From Rubrivivax sp. (lineage in GTDB: Bacteria; Pseudomonadota; Gammaproteobacteria; Burkholderiales; Burkholderiaceae_C): a stretch of DNA of 47,200 nucleotides. The notes below the pieces were generated by a model. That model did no database searches and was not told where the DNA came from. It saw nothing but the letters and a program-made list of their open reading frames with translations. Shown here one piece after another: positions 27,812-40,242 of the stretch; the stretch's first letter is position 1; every line of letters starts with the position of its first letter. A program made the position numbers and the translations under genes. The stretch is from NCBI GenBank assembly GCA_016788525.1, contig JAEUPD010000011.1:1-47200 (forward strand), given 5' to 3'.

Positions 27812-29911
27812 ATGAAGACCTTCATCGCCCGCCAACTCGACACCCTGGCCGGCTGGCGTGGTGCGGTGGACAAGCGGGTGCAGTCGCTGTCGGCGCTGCT
27901 GGCCGACAACGACCTGCAGGACGACGCCGCCACCGCGCAGATCATCGCGCTGCGCGAGCGCCTCGCTTCCGACAAGCTGGTGCTGGCCTTCGTGGCCGAG
28001 TTCTCGCGCGGCAAGTCGGAACTGATCAACGCCATCTTCTTCGCCGATGCCGGCCGGCGCGTGCTGCCGGCCACGCCCGGGCGCACCACGATGTGCCCGG
28101 TGGAGCTGCGCCACGATGCCGACCGGCCACCACGCCTGTCGCTGCTGCCCATCGAGACGCGGCTGCGCGGCCTGTCGCTGGCCGAACTGCGCGGCCACGA
28201 GGAGGCCTGGCAGCACGTGCCGCTGGAGCCGCGCAACACGCAGTCGCTGACGCAGGCGCTGGCCGCCGTCACGCGCACGCAGCATGTCAGCGTCGAGCAG
28301 GCCACGGCGCTGGGCCTGTGGAACGAGAACCGGCCCGAAGACAACCCGCCGCAGACAGCCGATGGCAGGGTCGAGGTGCCGAACTGGCGCCACGCGCTCA
28401 TCAATTACCCGCATCCGCTGCTGGAGGCCGGGCTGGTGGTCATCGACACGCCGGGGCTGAACGCCATCGGCGCCGAACCCGAGCTGACGCTGGGCCTGCT
28501 GCCCACCGCGCACGCGGTGGTGTTCGTGCTCGCCGCCGATACGGGCGTCACGCGCACCGACCTGGCCATCTGGCGCGAGCACCTCGGTGGCGCGAGCCTC
28601 GCGCGCTTCGTCGTGTTGAACAAGATCGACACGCTGGTCGACCCGCTGGCCACCACCGAGGAGGTGGAAGCGCAGATCGAGCAGCAGCGCCGCCACACCG
28701 CCGCCACGCTGGAGATTCCGCTGGCGCGTGTGTTCGCGCTGTCGGCGCGCGACGCCCTCTCGGCGCGTGTGGGCCACAACGCCGAGGCCGTCACGGCCAG
28801 CCGGGTGCCGCCGCTGGAGCGCGCGCTCGCCGACGAGCTGATGCCTCGCCGGCACGAGCTCTTGGTGCAAGCCGCCGTCACCGTGGTGCAGCAGCTGCAT
28901 GCCGGCGCGCTGCACCGCCTGGCCGACCGCCGCCGGCACACCGCCGAGCAGCTGCTCGAATTGCGCGGCCTGCGCGGCAAGAGCAGCGGCAAGCTGCAGC
29001 GCATGCTCGAACGCGTCGAGATCGAAGCGGCCGAGTTCGAGCGCTGCACCGCTCGGCTGGCCGCGCTGCGTTCGGTGCAGATGCGGCAGCTGCGCGAGAT
29101 GACCGCGCGGCTTTCCAACGAGACGCTGCGCCGCGAGGTGGGCGTGCTGCAGAACGAGACCGCGGGCCGCCCCTTCAACATCGGCGGCAAGGCGGCCTTC
29201 GCCAGCCTGCTGGGTCGCCTGCGCGACGTGCTCACCGCCGCCGAGCGCCAGGCCGACGAGATGCGGCAAATGCTCGAAGCCAGCTTCACACAGCTGAACA
29301 CCGAGTTCGGCTTCGCGCTGGTGGTCAGCCCGGCACCCTCGCTGGAGGCGTACCGCCGCGAGCTCACGCTGATCCAGGACAACTACAGCCGCTACTTCGG
29401 CTTCCACCAGGCCTGGCGCATGTCGCAGCCGGGCTTCGCCGAGCAGTTCCGGCGCATGCTGTTGTCCAAGCTGCGGGTCGTGTTCGAGAACGCCGGCGCC
29501 GAGCTCGAGCTGTGGAGCAAGGCGAGTTCGGGCCAGATCGAGATGCAGCTGCGTGAGCGGCGCCGCGGCTTCGCGCGCCGGCGCGATTCGCTGGAACGCG
29601 TGCAAAGCGCCGCCGGCGAGCTGGAGCTGCGCATCGCCGAGGTGCAGCAGCAGGAGGACCACCTCGTGCATCTGATCAGCCGCATCGAGGCGCTGGCCGG
29701 CAACGCGGTGTCCGCGGCGCGCTGCCCGCCCGGGCAGGAAGATCGGCTGGTGGACACCGTGCTGCCGGCGCTGCTGCCAGCGGCTGTGCCGGCGTCGGCC
29801 GCGCAGAGCCGCCGCTTCGACACGGTGCTGGACCACGCCGCCTCCGCCGGGAGTCTGGCCGCCGAGCTCGAACTCGACGAGCTGCCTGCGGCGCGGCAGA
29901 ACGCGGCTTGA
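27812..29911 (+). CDS. Dynamin-like GTPase
   Basis: The 699-residue protein has GTPase motifs G1 AEFSRGKSEL (62-71), a switch Thr in PGRTTMCPVEL, G3 VVIDTPGLNAIG and G4 VLNKIDTL. Long helical, coiled-coil-like stretches (about 340-520 and 550-640) carry no other known domain, as expected of bacterial dynamin-like stalks. No clear membrane helix is seen. Its stop overlaps the mutY start (TTGA). A gene of this type between mutM and mutY is a recurring Burkholderiales arrangement, but the role beside base-excision repair is not known. Confidence 0.9.
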   Translation: MKTFIARQLDTLAGWRGAVDKRVQSLSALLADNDLQDDAATAQIIALRERLASDKLVLAFVAEFSRGKSELINAIFFADAGRRVLPATPGRTTMCPVELRHDADRPPRLSLLPIETRLRGLSLAELRGHEEAWQHVPLEPRNTQSLTQALAAVTRTQHVSVEQATALGLWNENRPEDNPPQTADGRVEVPNWRHALINYPHPLLEAGLVVIDTPGLNAIGAEPELTLGLLPTAHAVVFVLAADTGVTRTDLAIWREHLGGASLARFVVLNKIDTLVDPLATTEEVEAQIEQQRRHTAATLEIPLARVFALSARDALSARVGHNAEAVTASRVPPLERALADELMPRRHELLVQAAVTVVQQLHAGALHRLADRRRHTAEQLLELRGLRGKSSGKLQRMLERVEIEAAEFERCTARLAALRSVQMRQLREMTARLSNETLRREVGVLQNETAGRPFNIGGKAAFASLLGRLRDVLTAAERQADEMRQMLEASFTQLNTEFGFALVVSPAPSLEAYRRELTLIQDNYSRYFGFHQAWRMSQPGFAEQFRRMLLSKLRVVFENAGAELELWSKASSGQIEMQLRERRRGFARRRDSLERVQSAAGELELRIAEVQQQEDHLVHLISRIEALAGNAVSAARCPPGQEDRLVDTVLPALLPAAVPASAAQSRRFDTVLDHAASAGSLAAELELDELPAARQNAA

Positions 29912-31011
29912 GCCGCACCCCGCGCCCGGCCGCGCACGACGCGCACGCCAGGCACGCCGAGCCAAACCCGCGCCCCGATGTCGCCGCCGCCGTGCAGCGC
30001 TGGCAACGACGGCATGGCCGCCGCGGCCTGCCGTGGGTCGGCGAGCGCGACCCGTACCGCGTCTGGCTTTCCGAGGTGATGCTGCAGCAGACGCAGGTCG
30101 CCACGGTGGTGGGCTACTACCAGCGCTTCCTTGAGCGCTTCCCGCATGTGCACGCGCTCGCCGAGGCGAGCGAGGACGAGGTGCTGGCACTGTGGAGCGG
30201 GCTGGGCTACTACAGCCGTGCGCGCAACCTGCACCGCTGCGCGCAGCAGGTGGTGGCCGTGCACCGTGGCCGGTTTCCCGAAGACAGCGCTGCCCTGGCG
30301 CAGCTGCCCGGCATCGGCCGCAGCACCGCCGCGGCCATAGCGGCCTTCTGCTTTGGCGAGCGTGCAGCCATTCTGGACGGCAACGTCAAGCGCGTGCTGA
30401 CGCGCGTGCTCGGCTTCGGTGGCGATCTGGCCGAAGCCGCCGCCGAGCGGGCGCTGTGGGCACGCGCCCAGGCGCTGCTGCCGGTGCGCGGCATCGAGGT
30501 CTACACGCAGGGCTTGATGGACCTCGGCGCCACCGTGTGCCTGACGCGGCAGCCCCGGTGCGCGCGCTGCCCGCTGGCCGCCCATTGCACGGCACGCGAA
30601 GAGGGCCGCCCCGAGGCCTACCCGGTGAAGAGCCGCCGCGCGCGCCGCGGAGAGCGCGATGACATCCTGCTGTGGCTGGAGCACCGCGGCCGCTGGTGGC
30701 TGGCGCGGCGCCCGGGCACCGGGGTGTGGGCCGGCCTGTGGTGCCTGCCGCTGCTGGCCGACACCGCGACTTTGACGCGCGCCACGGCCGGCTGGCCTGG
30801 CTCGTCACAGGCGCTGCCCGAGGTGCGGCATGCGCTCACGCACTTCGACTGGACGCTGCGCCCAACGCACTGGCGCTGGCCGGCCCGGGCCCGAGCCCCG
30901 GAGCCGGCCGAGCTGGAGAAGCGGCTGGGTCCGGGCCGCTGGCTGCTGCCCGACGAGGCCCTGGCGCAGGGTCTGCCGGCGCCGGTGCGCAGGTTGCTCG
31001 AAGCTGCTTGA
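29908..31011 (+). CDS. mutY: A/G-specific adenine glycosylase
   Basis: MutY removes adenine opposite 8-oxoguanine. The 367-residue protein has catalytic Glu in SEVMLQQTQV, helix-hairpin-helix LPGIGRSTAAAI, catalytic Asp in ILDGNVKRVL, and the [4Fe-4S] cluster CLTRQPRCARCPLAAHC (C-x6-C-x2-C-x5-C). The C-terminal NUDIX-like domain recognising 8-oxoG starts at about 245 (DDILLWLEHRGRWWLARR). The TTG start overlaps the GTPase stop; a later start such as GTG at 29993 would only trim a disordered N-terminus. Confidence 0.95.
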   Translation: MSRTPRPAAHDAHARHAEPNPRPDVAAAVQRWQRRHGRRGLPWVGERDPYRVWLSEVMLQQTQVATVVGYYQRFLERFPHVHALAEASEDEVLALWSGLGYYSRARNLHRCAQQVVAVHRGRFPEDSAALAQLPGIGRSTAAAIAAFCFGERAAILDGNVKRVLTRVLGFGGDLAEAAAERALWARAQALLPVRGIEVYTQGLMDLGATVCLTRQPRCARCPLAAHCTAREEGRPEAYPVKSRRARRGERDDILLWLEHRGRWWLARRPGTGVWAGLWCLPLLADTATLTRATAGWPGSSQALPEVRHALTHFDWTLRPTHWRWPARARAPEPAELEKRLGPGRWLLPDEALAQGLPAPVRRLLEAA

Positions 31012-38328: not shown

Positions 38329-38405
38329 GGGCCGGTAGCTCAGTCGGTCAGAGCAAGGGCCTCATAAGCCCGTGGTCGCGGGTTCGAGCCCCGCCCGGCC
38401 TACCA
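38329..38405 (+). tRNA. tRNA with CAT anticodon (tRNA-Met or tRNA-Ile2)
   Basis: A 77-nt cloverleaf with acceptor GGGCCGG/CCGGCCT, D-arm AGCTC...GAGC, anticodon loop CTCATAA, T-arm GCGGG-TTCGAGC-CCCGC, discriminator A and encoded CCA. The first acceptor pair is G-T and the outer anticodon-stem pair is A-G. C4-G69 and C5-G68 resemble the lysidine-modified tRNA-Ile2 of E. coli, so this may be that rather than elongator Met. Confidence 0.95.
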
Positions 38406-38455: not shown

Positions 38456-38620
38456 GGGCAGGCTGCTGCGGGCGGCCGTCGCTGCCCCCACTTCCGATCG
38501 TCTGCGAGATCCTGTACCGGGCATCTGGAGCAGACCCCGACCGAGTGCCGATGATCGGCTCGGCGTGCCGCTGTGGACCGGCCTTTGGCGACGGGGCCGC
38601 GGCGCCGACGAGGAAGGGGT

Positions 38621-38649
38621 TGCAGGTGGGGCTGTATTTTCATACAGTC
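38621..38649 (+). promoter_or_regulatory. Promoter overlapping the LexA box
   Basis: TTGCAG (38621-38626) and TACAGT (38644-38649) are separated by 17 bp, a near-ideal sigma-70 layout. The LexA box covers the spacer and -10, which is the usual way LexA blocks a promoter. Confidence 0.7.
38632..38647 (+). promoter_or_regulatory. LexA (SOS) box
   Basis: CTGTATTTTCATACAG is a full CTGT-N8-ACAG SOS box with an AT-only centre apart from one C. In a 70% GC genome a chance match is unlikely. It lies 27 bp before the ATG of the 28-residue ORF. Confidence 0.85.
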
Positions 38650-38673
38650 CCCTCCCCGCCAACGGAGAGTCCC

Positions 38674-38760
38674 ATGCACGCCCGAGACCTTCGCCAGCTG
38701 TACCACCCCAGGCCGCAGCGGCTGCCGCGCTGGCTGCGGCGCATCTGGGTCTGGTTCTGA
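38674..38760 (+). CDS. SOS-controlled 28-residue peptide (candidate)
   Basis: This ORF, too short for routine calling, follows the LexA-box promoter. GGAGAG at 38664-38669 is a strong ribosome site 4 bp before the ATG. The peptide starts MHARDLRQLYHPRPQ and ends RWLRRIWVWF: seven Arg, three Trp and one Phe, so it is strongly basic with an aromatic C-terminus. It is not a plain hydrophobic helix like TisB, but its size and LexA control recall TisB and SidA, which act at the membrane in SOS. I recognise no family. The 38406-38620 stretch before it and 38761-38903 after it hold no other ORF. Confidence 0.6.
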   Translation: MHARDLRQLYHPRPQRLPRWLRRIWVWF

Positions 38761-38903: not shown

Positions 38904-39188
38904 ATGAACGCCCCCTGGTCCCCCGAAGTCCTTCTCCGTCTGGCTGACGACGGCCAGGCCTCGCTCCCGCTGGGCGCCGATGGCGTGGCGCGCTGGGTAT
39001 GGCAAAGCCGCTTCGGCGCCATGCTCATCGAAGTCATCGACGGGGCGGTGTTCGTCAATGGCGCGCGCGTGCAGCCGCATGTCGGCACGCCTGGACAAAG
39101 GCCGCCGGCGCCATCGACGAGCAGCGCGGCGCCCGCCGCGGATGCGGCCGCGACCTCACCGGCCGGGCGACCGGGGCCGCAGCCATGA
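38904..39188 (+). CDS. Small hypothetical protein coupled to DUF3224 gene
   Basis: The 94-residue product starts MNAPWSPEVLLRLADDGQAS, has a beta-rich centre (VWQSRFGAMLIEVIDGAVFVNG), and ends in a Pro/Ala/Ser-rich tail of about 35 residues. I do not recognise it. Its stop overlaps the start of the DUF3224 gene (ATGA), which supports real translation. It could belong to the LexA-controlled transcript, since no terminator is seen in between. Confidence 0.65.
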   Translation: MNAPWSPEVLLRLADDGQASLPLGADGVARWVWQSRFGAMLIEVIDGAVFVNGARVQPHVGTPGQRPPAPSTSSAAPAADAAATSPAGRPGPQP

Positions 39189-39610
39189 ACACCACGGCCT
39201 GCGGGACCTTCGTCGTGAGGCTGTCGCCGCTGCCCTTCGAGGGCGACCCCGGCCAGCCGGCGCAGGCCACCGGGGCCGGCGCAAGCGCGACGCTGGCCCG
39301 CCTCGAGATCAACAAGCAGATCGAAGGCGACCTCGTCGCCACCACCCGCGGCCAGATGCTCAGCGCAGTGCCCGGCATGCCAGGCTCGGCCGGCTACGTC
39401 GCCATGGAGCTTGTCGACGGCGCGCTGCACGGCCGCCGCGGCTCGTTCGTGCTTCAGCACTCGGGCACGATGAGCCGGGGAACACCGCAACTGGCCGTGA
39501 CGGTGGTGCCCGACTCGGCCACCGGCGAGCTGCAGGGGCTGGCGGGCACGTTCCGCATCATCGTGGCCGGCGGCCAGCACCGCTACGAGTTCGACTACAC
39601 GCTGCCCTGA
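39185..39610 (+). CDS. DUF3224 domain-containing protein
   Basis: The 141-residue protein matches the allene oxide cyclase-like DUF3224 barrel: ARLEINKQIEGDLVATTRGQML, AGYVAMELVDGALHGRRGSFVLQHSGTM, then VVPDSATGELQGLAGTFRIIV and a final YEFDYTLP. No catalytic role is established for bacterial members. No signal peptide. Coupled to the preceding small gene. Confidence 0.88.
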   Translation: MNTTACGTFVVRLSPLPFEGDPGQPAQATGAGASATLARLEINKQIEGDLVATTRGQMLSAVPGMPGSAGYVAMELVDGALHGRRGSFVLQHSGTMSRGTPQLAVTVVPDSATGELQGLAGTFRIIVAGGQHRYEFDYTLP

Positions 39611-39622
39611 CGACCCGGCGCC

Positions 39623-40086
39623 GTGGACATGCCCTCGCCCGCCCCGCTGCTGCTTCTTGCAGGGGCCAGCGGCTATGCCTACGACCAGTGGAGAGGCAAC
39701 TTCCACCCCGAGAAGCTGCGTGCCGGGGAAATGCTCGGCCGGTACACGCAGCACCTCGGCAAGGTGGAGATCAACAACACCTTCTACCGCATGCCCAGGC
39801 GCAGCGTGCTCGAGCGGTGGGCGCCGCGGTGCCCGAACACTTCCGCTTTGCGCTCAAGGCCTCGCGCCGCATCACGCACGAGGCACGGCTCGATGGCGCG
39901 CCGCGCTGGGTGGCCACGACCAGTTGGGGCTACCCGCGCCTGCGGCTCGAGCATTGCACCGAGGCCAGCCTGGCCGAGTGGGCCGCGCGCATTGCAGCGG
40001 CGCCGTGGCGCGAGGCCCACGTGTACTTCGTGCACGAGCCCGCGGCGCTGTCGCGCCTGTACGAGGCTGGCCTGGCGGCAGCCTGA
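39623..40086 (+). pseudogene. DUF72 (YecE-like) pseudogene: frameshift and internal deletion
   Basis: The front (GASGYAYDQWRGNFHPEKLR, then KVEINNTFYRMPRRSVLERWAPR) is a clear DUF72 N-terminus in frame with GTG 39623. Near 39820 the reading frame must shift to continue with VPEHFRFALKASRRITHEARL. The following sequence jumps straight to the C-terminal WVATTSWGYPRLRLEHC...WREAHVYFVHEP block, so roughly 100 middle residues are missing. Total length is about 154 codons against 240-260 in the family. Not expected to be functional. Confidence 0.8.
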
Positions 40087-40242
40087 GCACGCGTCGGCCG
40101 GCAGCGGCACGGCCGGCAACGCACAAGGTCGCCCGGGCGTTCCGGACATGAAGGCCGAACCCTCGGCCTCGGTGCGGCCGGCTGGCGGCTGCTAACGCAC
40201 CGGGGCGCCGGCCCAGGCCCCCGCCCGAGAAGGCCGGCCAGG

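Follow-up and report, generated by a model that had tools for sequence, protein, structure and literature searches.

A LexA-boxed, tryptophan-rich microprotein and its small partner dn1: a candidate SOS module in one bacterial family

The window, a 47,200-nucleotide stretch of a Rubrivivax sp. contig, carries a very short gene behind a LexA-type promoter, followed on the same strand by a small partner gene and a further open reading frame (ORF):

38620..38625, + strand: -35 element TTGCAG, from sequence reading, with a family-wide cTTGc at the same offset
38632..38647, + strand: LexA core CTGTATTTTCATACAG, from sequence reading, conserved in family loci
38643..38648, + strand: -10 element TACAGT after a 17-bp spacer, inside the box, from sequence reading and box-aligned family loci
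38674..38760, + strand: gene of a 28-residue basic, Trp-rich microprotein, stop included, with homologs in the genus and pN/pS 0.30
38904..39188, + strand: partner gene dn1, 94 aa, with a QASLPL motif and a small predicted beta domain, from adjacent homologs, alignment and predicted fold
39185..39610, + strand: ORF whose ATG overlaps the dn1 stop codon (ATGA, 39185-39188)

A preliminary description of this DNA had placed a CTGT-N8-ACAG box across the spacer and -10 element of a TTGCAG-17 bp-TACAGT promoter, and both readings hold: the core overlaps the -10 element, and the promoter spacing is kept across family loci. The start that it gave, 38621, is one base late. The ribosome site and short ORF that it described are also there, with an SD-like GGAGAG before the ATG at 38674 and 28 codons plus TGA (translation MHARDLRQLYHPRPQRLPRWLRRIWVWF). 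A generic sigma-70 scan does not list the peptide promoter among its predictions; the -35 element agrees with the consensus at 3 of 6 bases, and the scan demands 4.

The peptide box is the single CTGT-N8-ACAG site in the window. This bare pattern is not rare by chance, with a mean of 0.40 per shuffle and at least one site in 36 of 100 shuffles of the window, and the window's assembly (73% complete) holds 11 such sites genome-wide versus 9 for a reversed control. We regard the peptide box as beyond chance for two reasons. First, 4 of the 11 sites, the peptide box among them, have the fuller form CTGTAT-N4-ATACAG, and the remaining three precede imuA, a PA0069-family radical-SAM gene and an integron integrase gene. 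Second, box, promoter spacing, start codon and reading frame are kept together over 112 loci. Two studies report or predict that, in beta-proteobacteria, LexA governs imuA, integron integrases and a gene resembling photolyases (PMC3323433, PMC3108266). The radical-SAM gene of the window's genome (L203, 365-1498, minus strand), which has a perfect LexA core directly before it and a dnaB-type helicase gene beside it, is possibly this predicted SOS photolyase-like gene. The DNA-binding domain of LexA was found in all 21 genus genomes searched, and the lexA locus of the window's genome has two side-by-side near-boxes, of which one departs from the core at a single base and the other at two.

Across the family, 88 of 112 loci have a perfect LexA core no more than 110 nt upstream of the start codon, and 105 have a core if one mismatch is allowed, compared with 0.3% and 4.3% of shuffled upstream regions and 0.55% and 2.7% of other long-ORF starts in the same loci (n=4587, nested starts included). 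When the 105 loci are aligned on the box, cTTGc is the sole strongly conserved block upstream of the box edge (T 0.75, T 0.64, G 0.70), and it lies 17 bp from the in-box TACAGT. The box ends 17-28 nt before the start codon in 68 of these 105 loci. Of the 112 starts, 108 are ATG and 93 have an SD-like tetramer before them. In 36 of the 112 loci a further box, again with no more than one mismatch, is found within 150 nt, and in 24 of these it lies 18 nt away from the first box; two such boxes occur in 0.04% of base shuffles. The family thus shows what is expected of a LexA-regulon member, a box that overlaps the promoter and is conserved across orthologs. Judged from the DNA, the peptide gene with its LexA-type control at 38620-38760 is almost certainly real.

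With the 28-residue peptide sequence as query, 19 of 24 other genus genomes were matched (E at most 0.0012) and none of 16 genomes of other families (best E 0.128). A profile search found the peptide in 53 of 81 genus genomes, the window's own included, each at E at most 1.3e-7, with no match in the other 28. In a draw of 399 family genomes scored on the best 20 candidates per genome, 71 were matched at 0.01 and 62 kept, after nine with partial matches were dropped (G066, G080, G089, G119, G125, G144, G189, G338, G409); in a draw of 250 genomes from the order, scored on the best 33 candidates per genome, the window's own gave the sole clear match. With candidates limited in this way, absences in these searches are soft. 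Partial matches in 6 of the 249 non-window genomes, from other families of the order, reached 6e-4 at best and were not kept. In another family of the order, an ORF beginning at base 77 of L199 (G579; E 6e-4) has a peptide-like start, MRQHYTPKPAPIPRW, that runs into a hydrophobic membrane-type segment, and is either a chance likeness or a fused relative. The 200 loci collected reduce to 112 distinct loci and 106 distinct proteins once identical copies are removed, along with matches that score below 20 bits or have two or more residues past the matched stretch. Among nine loci, the carriers with names include Rhizobacter sp. Root404, two further Rhizobacter records and Rubrivivax sp. SCN 70-15. 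Some genomes, G473, G024, G271 and G106, have the peptide gene in two or three copies (L142/L078, L106/L158, L135/L161, L177/L270).

The family consensus peptide has no match in plasmids or phages, none of 80 peptide pattern matches in viral contigs was confirmed, and dn1, searched with two queries in plasmids and one in phages, has no match in either; a phage or plasmid origin of the two genes was rejected on the lack of matches to plasmids and phages. In 7 of 112 loci, namely the window (38329-38405), L083, L086, L128, L129, L131 and L133, a same-strand tRNA gene for Met, Val, Ser, Pro or Lys precedes the peptide gene by no more than 450 nt. With five different amino acids among so few loci, a link of the peptide to the upstream tRNA-Met is not general; the tRNAs of this minority perhaps hint at how the peptide gene changes place.

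Codon comparisons indicate that the peptide is conserved at the protein level and is under purifying selection. Forty-two disjoint pairs, picked by nucleotide identity, were compared over their last 22 codons: 128, 76 and 227 changes fall at codon positions 1, 2 and 3, and the pooled pN/pS is 0.30 (bootstrap 0.24-0.37), decreasing to 0.10 when the 13 closest pairs are taken. Neither of the two remaining reading frames of this DNA has a comparable excess of synonymous change. The window's closest relative, L083, has an identical peptide, its last 22 codons differing by three synonymous changes alone. The preliminary description had named loss of the ORF beside a kept box as one observation that would count against it, and had proposed the synonymous change pattern as a check; ORF and box are in fact kept together, and selection acts on the ORF. 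Downstream of the gene, the first 60 nt have 36% identity in an ungapped comparison of the 42 pairs, in which a shifted element could escape.

Conservation is strongest at the C-terminus, where the 106 proteins share the pattern P-x-W-L-R-R-[ILV]-W-x-W-[FL] with the stop codon directly after it. Counted back from the end, P at -11 is present in 106 of 106 proteins, the Trp residues at -9, -4 and -2 are present in 101, 103 and 101, and the final residue is F or L in 100. The mean net charge is +4.8, and at least three Trp are found in 93 of 106 proteins. The helical moment of the last 9-11 residues peaks at 100 degrees among eight angles tried, and same-permutation shuffles reach that moment in 33, 19 and 15 of 500 cases for 9, 10 and 11 residues, which we take as moderate evidence for a C-terminal amphipathic helix. 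The best 15-residue Kyte-Doolittle mean over the 106 peptides is 0.67, so no stretch is hydrophobic enough to cross a membrane.

These properties bear on whether the peptide could act as TisB does, a basic Trp-rich helix on the inner face of the membrane lowering the proton gradient and bringing on dormancy. TisB and DinQ are described, in the portion of the source available, as hydrophobic inner-membrane peptides of type I pairs (PMC11997105), and the peptide is like them small, amphipathic and placed under SOS control, which for the peptide is predicted. Its charge, its Trp content and its C-terminal helix would suit a membrane-active peptide, but it is too short and polar to span a membrane and lacks the hydrophobic spanning segment that characterizes the SidA/TisB type. 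Moreover, the positions of Arg, Tyr and Pro are conserved, which would be unexpected for a mere membrane binder, whereas TisB and DinQ differ from it in the polar and aromatic residues that it keeps. Type I pairs use antisense-RNA antitoxins. Here the short distance from box to start and the unconserved downstream flank (compared ungapped) give no sign of such an arrangement. A membrane-active role is for these reasons quite unlikely, and a specific protein partner is the reading that we prefer: the conservation of R, Y, P, P, W, W and W goes beyond what charge and hydrophobicity would demand, suggesting that the peptide probably docks on such a partner rather than acting on membranes in general.

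The peptide is related to no characterized family that we could identify, as the preliminary description had expected when it called the peptide undescribed. There is no convincing match in Pfam or NCBIfam for two sequences and a 40-member alignment (A3), and no match to SulA (PF03846) in either; PHROGs and PADLOC give nothing beyond weak, chance-like matches, and a PDB sequence search found nothing. PF14475 (best 0.006, 5 of 40 members) and phrog_30075 (best 0.011, 2 of 40 members) were taken as chance. The claim that the peptide resembles neither TisB nor SidA also holds up, in that it has no membrane-crossing stretch, SidA and TisB being known here by description.

The partner gene dn1 lies directly downstream of the peptide gene in 26 of 112 loci and directly upstream in five, 31 loci in all, leaving 81 in which no dn1 adjoins the peptide. 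Among 14 groups, the largest, of other small conserved neighbors in those 81 loci, none spans more than four loci. All five dn1-first loci belong to the seven whose peptide gene has no box of its own; a box with at most one mismatch stands before dn1 in three of the five and is absent in two, and the stop and start codons overlap in three. Where dn1 occurs with no peptide detected nearby, it has its own box in 18 of 27 loci, nine of them perfect. In two further loci, L276 and L281, which the count lists as having dn1 alone, a diverged peptide can be read by eye ahead of dn1. Thus, the peptide and dn1 genes stand behind predicted LexA-type boxes, together or apart. Over 21 pairs, dn1 has a pN/pS of 0.32, which indicates purifying selection.

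At E 0.001, 28 of the 81 genomes of the genus and 40 of the 399 drawn from the family gave a dn1 match, the family search scoring the best 15 candidates per genome, so that its absences are soft; the genus and family searches together recovered the genomes of all 31 loci in which dn1 adjoins the peptide. Co-occurrence was counted with dn1 matches of at least 50 bits (26 of the 28 genus genomes and 34 of the 40 family genomes). Within the genus, 24 genomes have both genes, 2 dn1 only, 29 the peptide only and 26 neither (Fisher p 4e-4, not corrected for descent); in the family draw the corresponding counts are 23, 11, 39 and 326 (p 4e-13, likewise not corrected for descent). The genus pattern is nearly nested, since 24 of the 26 dn1 genomes also carry the peptide, while 29 of the 53 peptide-bearing genomes have no dn1 at 50 bits or more among the limited candidates scored per genome. 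In the family draw, 11 of 34 dn1 genomes have no detected peptide, and two of the 11 are the genomes of the by-eye peptides just mentioned. The association of the two genes may reflect shared descent.

These distributions weigh on two further readings. The ORF could be a leader peptide, or upstream ORF, whose sole function is to regulate dn1, as its position before dn1 in 26 loci would allow; this is hardly credible, given that 81 loci have no adjoining dn1, that five have the peptide after dn1, and that protein-level constraint acts on the C-terminal residues. Alternatively, the peptide and dn1 could form a toxin-antidote pair, the basic peptide (mean charge +4.8) being held by the acidic dn1 (mean charge -2.5). 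Their adjacency in both orders and the stop/start overlap in three of five dn1-first loci would fit such a pair, but both genes stand under LexA-type boxes, and with so many peptide-bearing genus genomes lacking dn1 it is hardly an obligatory antidote; the antidote that accompanies its toxin in type II systems is accordingly not what we see here. We consider this pair very unlikely and retain the view of two microproteins that would be induced together or apart.

At the window locus, the preliminary description had raised the possibility that the transcript actually serves the genes at 38904-39610. Half of this stands: the transcript probably serves dn1 (38904), a conserved partner, also, but not instead of the peptide, because in 81 of 112 loci the peptide occurs without an adjoining dn1. 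The ORF at 39185-39610 is possibly the third gene of this transcript; the alignment with L083 skips window positions 39085-39599.

The 94 residues of dn1 in the window compare with a range of 54-96 aa over 56 distinct proteins, which are conserved in an alignment (A5). Near the N-terminus is a short motif, in the window QASLPL at residues 18-23 (38955-38972). In the family, the spacing from this hexamer to the first conserved Trp after it is constant, and the hexamer has Q in 43 of 55 proteins, L in 50, P in 40 and L in 50 (QADLPL, QASLPL and the like). Q..L.L occurs within the first 40 residues of 41 of 56 dn1 proteins versus 3.3% of shuffles. The predicted structure, made with six sequences (mean pLDDT 65, pTM 0.40), has strands at residues 28-56; a block at residues 31-60 reaches pLDDT 83-88, and the N-terminal part that bears the motif is of low confidence. 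A fold search with this model found nothing at E 0.001 in the PDB or among viral models. By sequence, three dn1 proteins gave no Pfam match and one NCBIfam match at 0.16, a single PHROG match at 0.099 came from 1 of 27, and the PDB gave two weak matches only (0.28, 0.83).

The QxxLPL of dn1 resembles sliding-clamp-binding motifs. The clamp-binding motif also exists in a hexapeptide form, of which E. coli Hda and Pol III are examples, and Hda has its motif at the N-terminus, ahead of an AAA+ domain. In the best matches to the Hda model from the clade and its order, Q-[LIV]-x-L-x-[LIV] stands near the N-terminus in 15 of 15 read, several of which lie below the model cut-off (a sixteenth, L307, was left out because its match starts at model position 19). 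The position of the hexapeptide in dn1 is similar, but the second residue of the motif is Leu, Ile or Val in Hda and in most dn1 proteins Pro or Ala (Leu in 5 of 55), and dn1 has its small predicted beta domain. The motif of dn1 is of the Q-x-x-L-x-[LF] type, lies in a low-confidence segment of the model that we take as flexible, and mostly lacks the preferred Leu at position 2. The clamp-binding consensus is given elsewhere as QL[S/D]LF, with S or D most frequent at the central residue, in the part of that article available (PMC3716654). No clamp motif was seen in the conserved columns of the peptide.

The ImuA-ImuB-DnaE2 mutagenesis cassette offers a LexA-controlled comparison in beta-proteobacteria, and mycobacterial ImuB has a clamp-binding motif, according to the accessible portions of two papers (PMC3323433, PMC3901139). 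It is like the present genes in its LexA control and in the ImuB motif, which dn1 may share, but its proteins are far larger and ImuA does not track the peptide. ImuA was rejected as a simple partner: the peptide is carried by 7 of 11 genus genomes without ImuA (none over the cut-off), or 4 of 8 if three matches at contig ends are set aside, versus 53 of 81 overall. In four cassettes, a pattern search for ImuB clamp motifs gave none that could be assigned.

We propose that a LexA-repressed gene encodes a cytosolic effector peptide of about 28 residues, which in about a quarter of loci would share a transcription unit with dn1. DNA damage would remove LexA, and the peptide and dn1 would then be made. 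The last ten residues of the peptide would form an amphipathic helix that has a Trp face, ends in a fixed and free C-terminus and docks on a specific partner. The site of action of the module would be the clamp or replisome, where it would slow replication or gate polymerase exchange during repair of the damage. Induction by damage is expected because the SOS pathway, in which DNA damage leads to LexA cleavage and induction, is well established, and because the promoter has the matching anatomy; that both proteins are made and selected is indicated by the codon evidence. Taken as a whole, this explanation of an SOS-induced, replisome-acting module of two microproteins is our best one, held tentatively and at somewhat less than an even chance. 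The clamp or replisome as site of action is favored because the clamp-type motif of dn1 lies just before its small beta domain, and is by itself a possible assignment more than a probable one; a clamp role deduced from dn1 need not apply to the peptide, because dn1 does not adjoin the peptide in most loci and, at 50 bits or more, was not detected in 29 of the 53 genus genomes that carry the peptide. More speculative, and rather unlikely in this full form, is a previously undescribed SOS checkpoint in which dn1 sits on the sliding clamp and the Trp-helix peptide beside it on the replisome, holding or re-routing replication after damage.

The main rival to the clamp or replisome is division arrest, because no clear SulA was found in this group. 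Here the peptide would be the SOS cell-division inhibitor, in the role of SulA or SidA, binding a divisome protein, with dn1 as a modulator. PF03846 has matches in 2 of 81 genus and 27 of 399 family genomes, all weak, and the three that were checked are ImuA. As far as the available parts of two articles go, SOS division inhibitors vary among bacterial groups and several are small (PMC4211646, PMC9578287), and the residue-specific conservation of the peptide points to a protein partner, as such an inhibitor would need. SidA of Caulobacter, a 29-aa SOS-induced inner-membrane protein that acts on FtsW according to the accessible text (PMC4211646), is similar in size, in LexA control and in being a single small gene. 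However, SidA, YneA and SosA are all presented as membrane proteins in the source portions seen, and the peptide, compared with SidA by description and not by sequence, has no spanning stretch. Moreover, 28 of 81 genus genomes have no peptide match, and the dn1 motif points elsewhere. We judge a division inhibitor unlikely and keep to the clamp or replisome as the preferred site.

The peptide family appears to be a new, unnamed part of the SOS response in one bacterial family. Among the literature matches listed, from a search with most subscription journals outside its scope, no title or abstract describes such a peptide. How beta-proteobacteria control division and replication during the SOS response is little understood. 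The two microproteins, which are conserved, stand behind LexA boxes and have no convincing match in Pfam or NCBIfam, provide a concrete, testable entry to this question. If the clamp motif of dn1 works, dn1 would be an SOS-induced mini-protein at the sliding clamp, which bears on replication control and would make it a natural clamp ligand. In the available portion of one study, hypA and hypB are hypothetical genes of beta-proteobacteria with predicted LexA control (PMC3323433); by that description alone they are like dn1 and the peptide in being uncharacterized, LexA-predicted and beta-proteobacterial, and could be related to dn1.

Two minor features of the window were also recorded. ARAGORN reports a 93-nt tRNA-Ala at 29893-29985 on the minus strand, which is absent from Rfam at the gathering threshold and is probably false. 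On the plus strand (39623-40195 and 38980-40086), a protein that starts MDMPSPAPLLLLAGASGYAYDQWRGNF seems to continue in another frame near 39800 (VPEHFRFALKASRR), where the gene seems to be frameshifted or the assembly in error.
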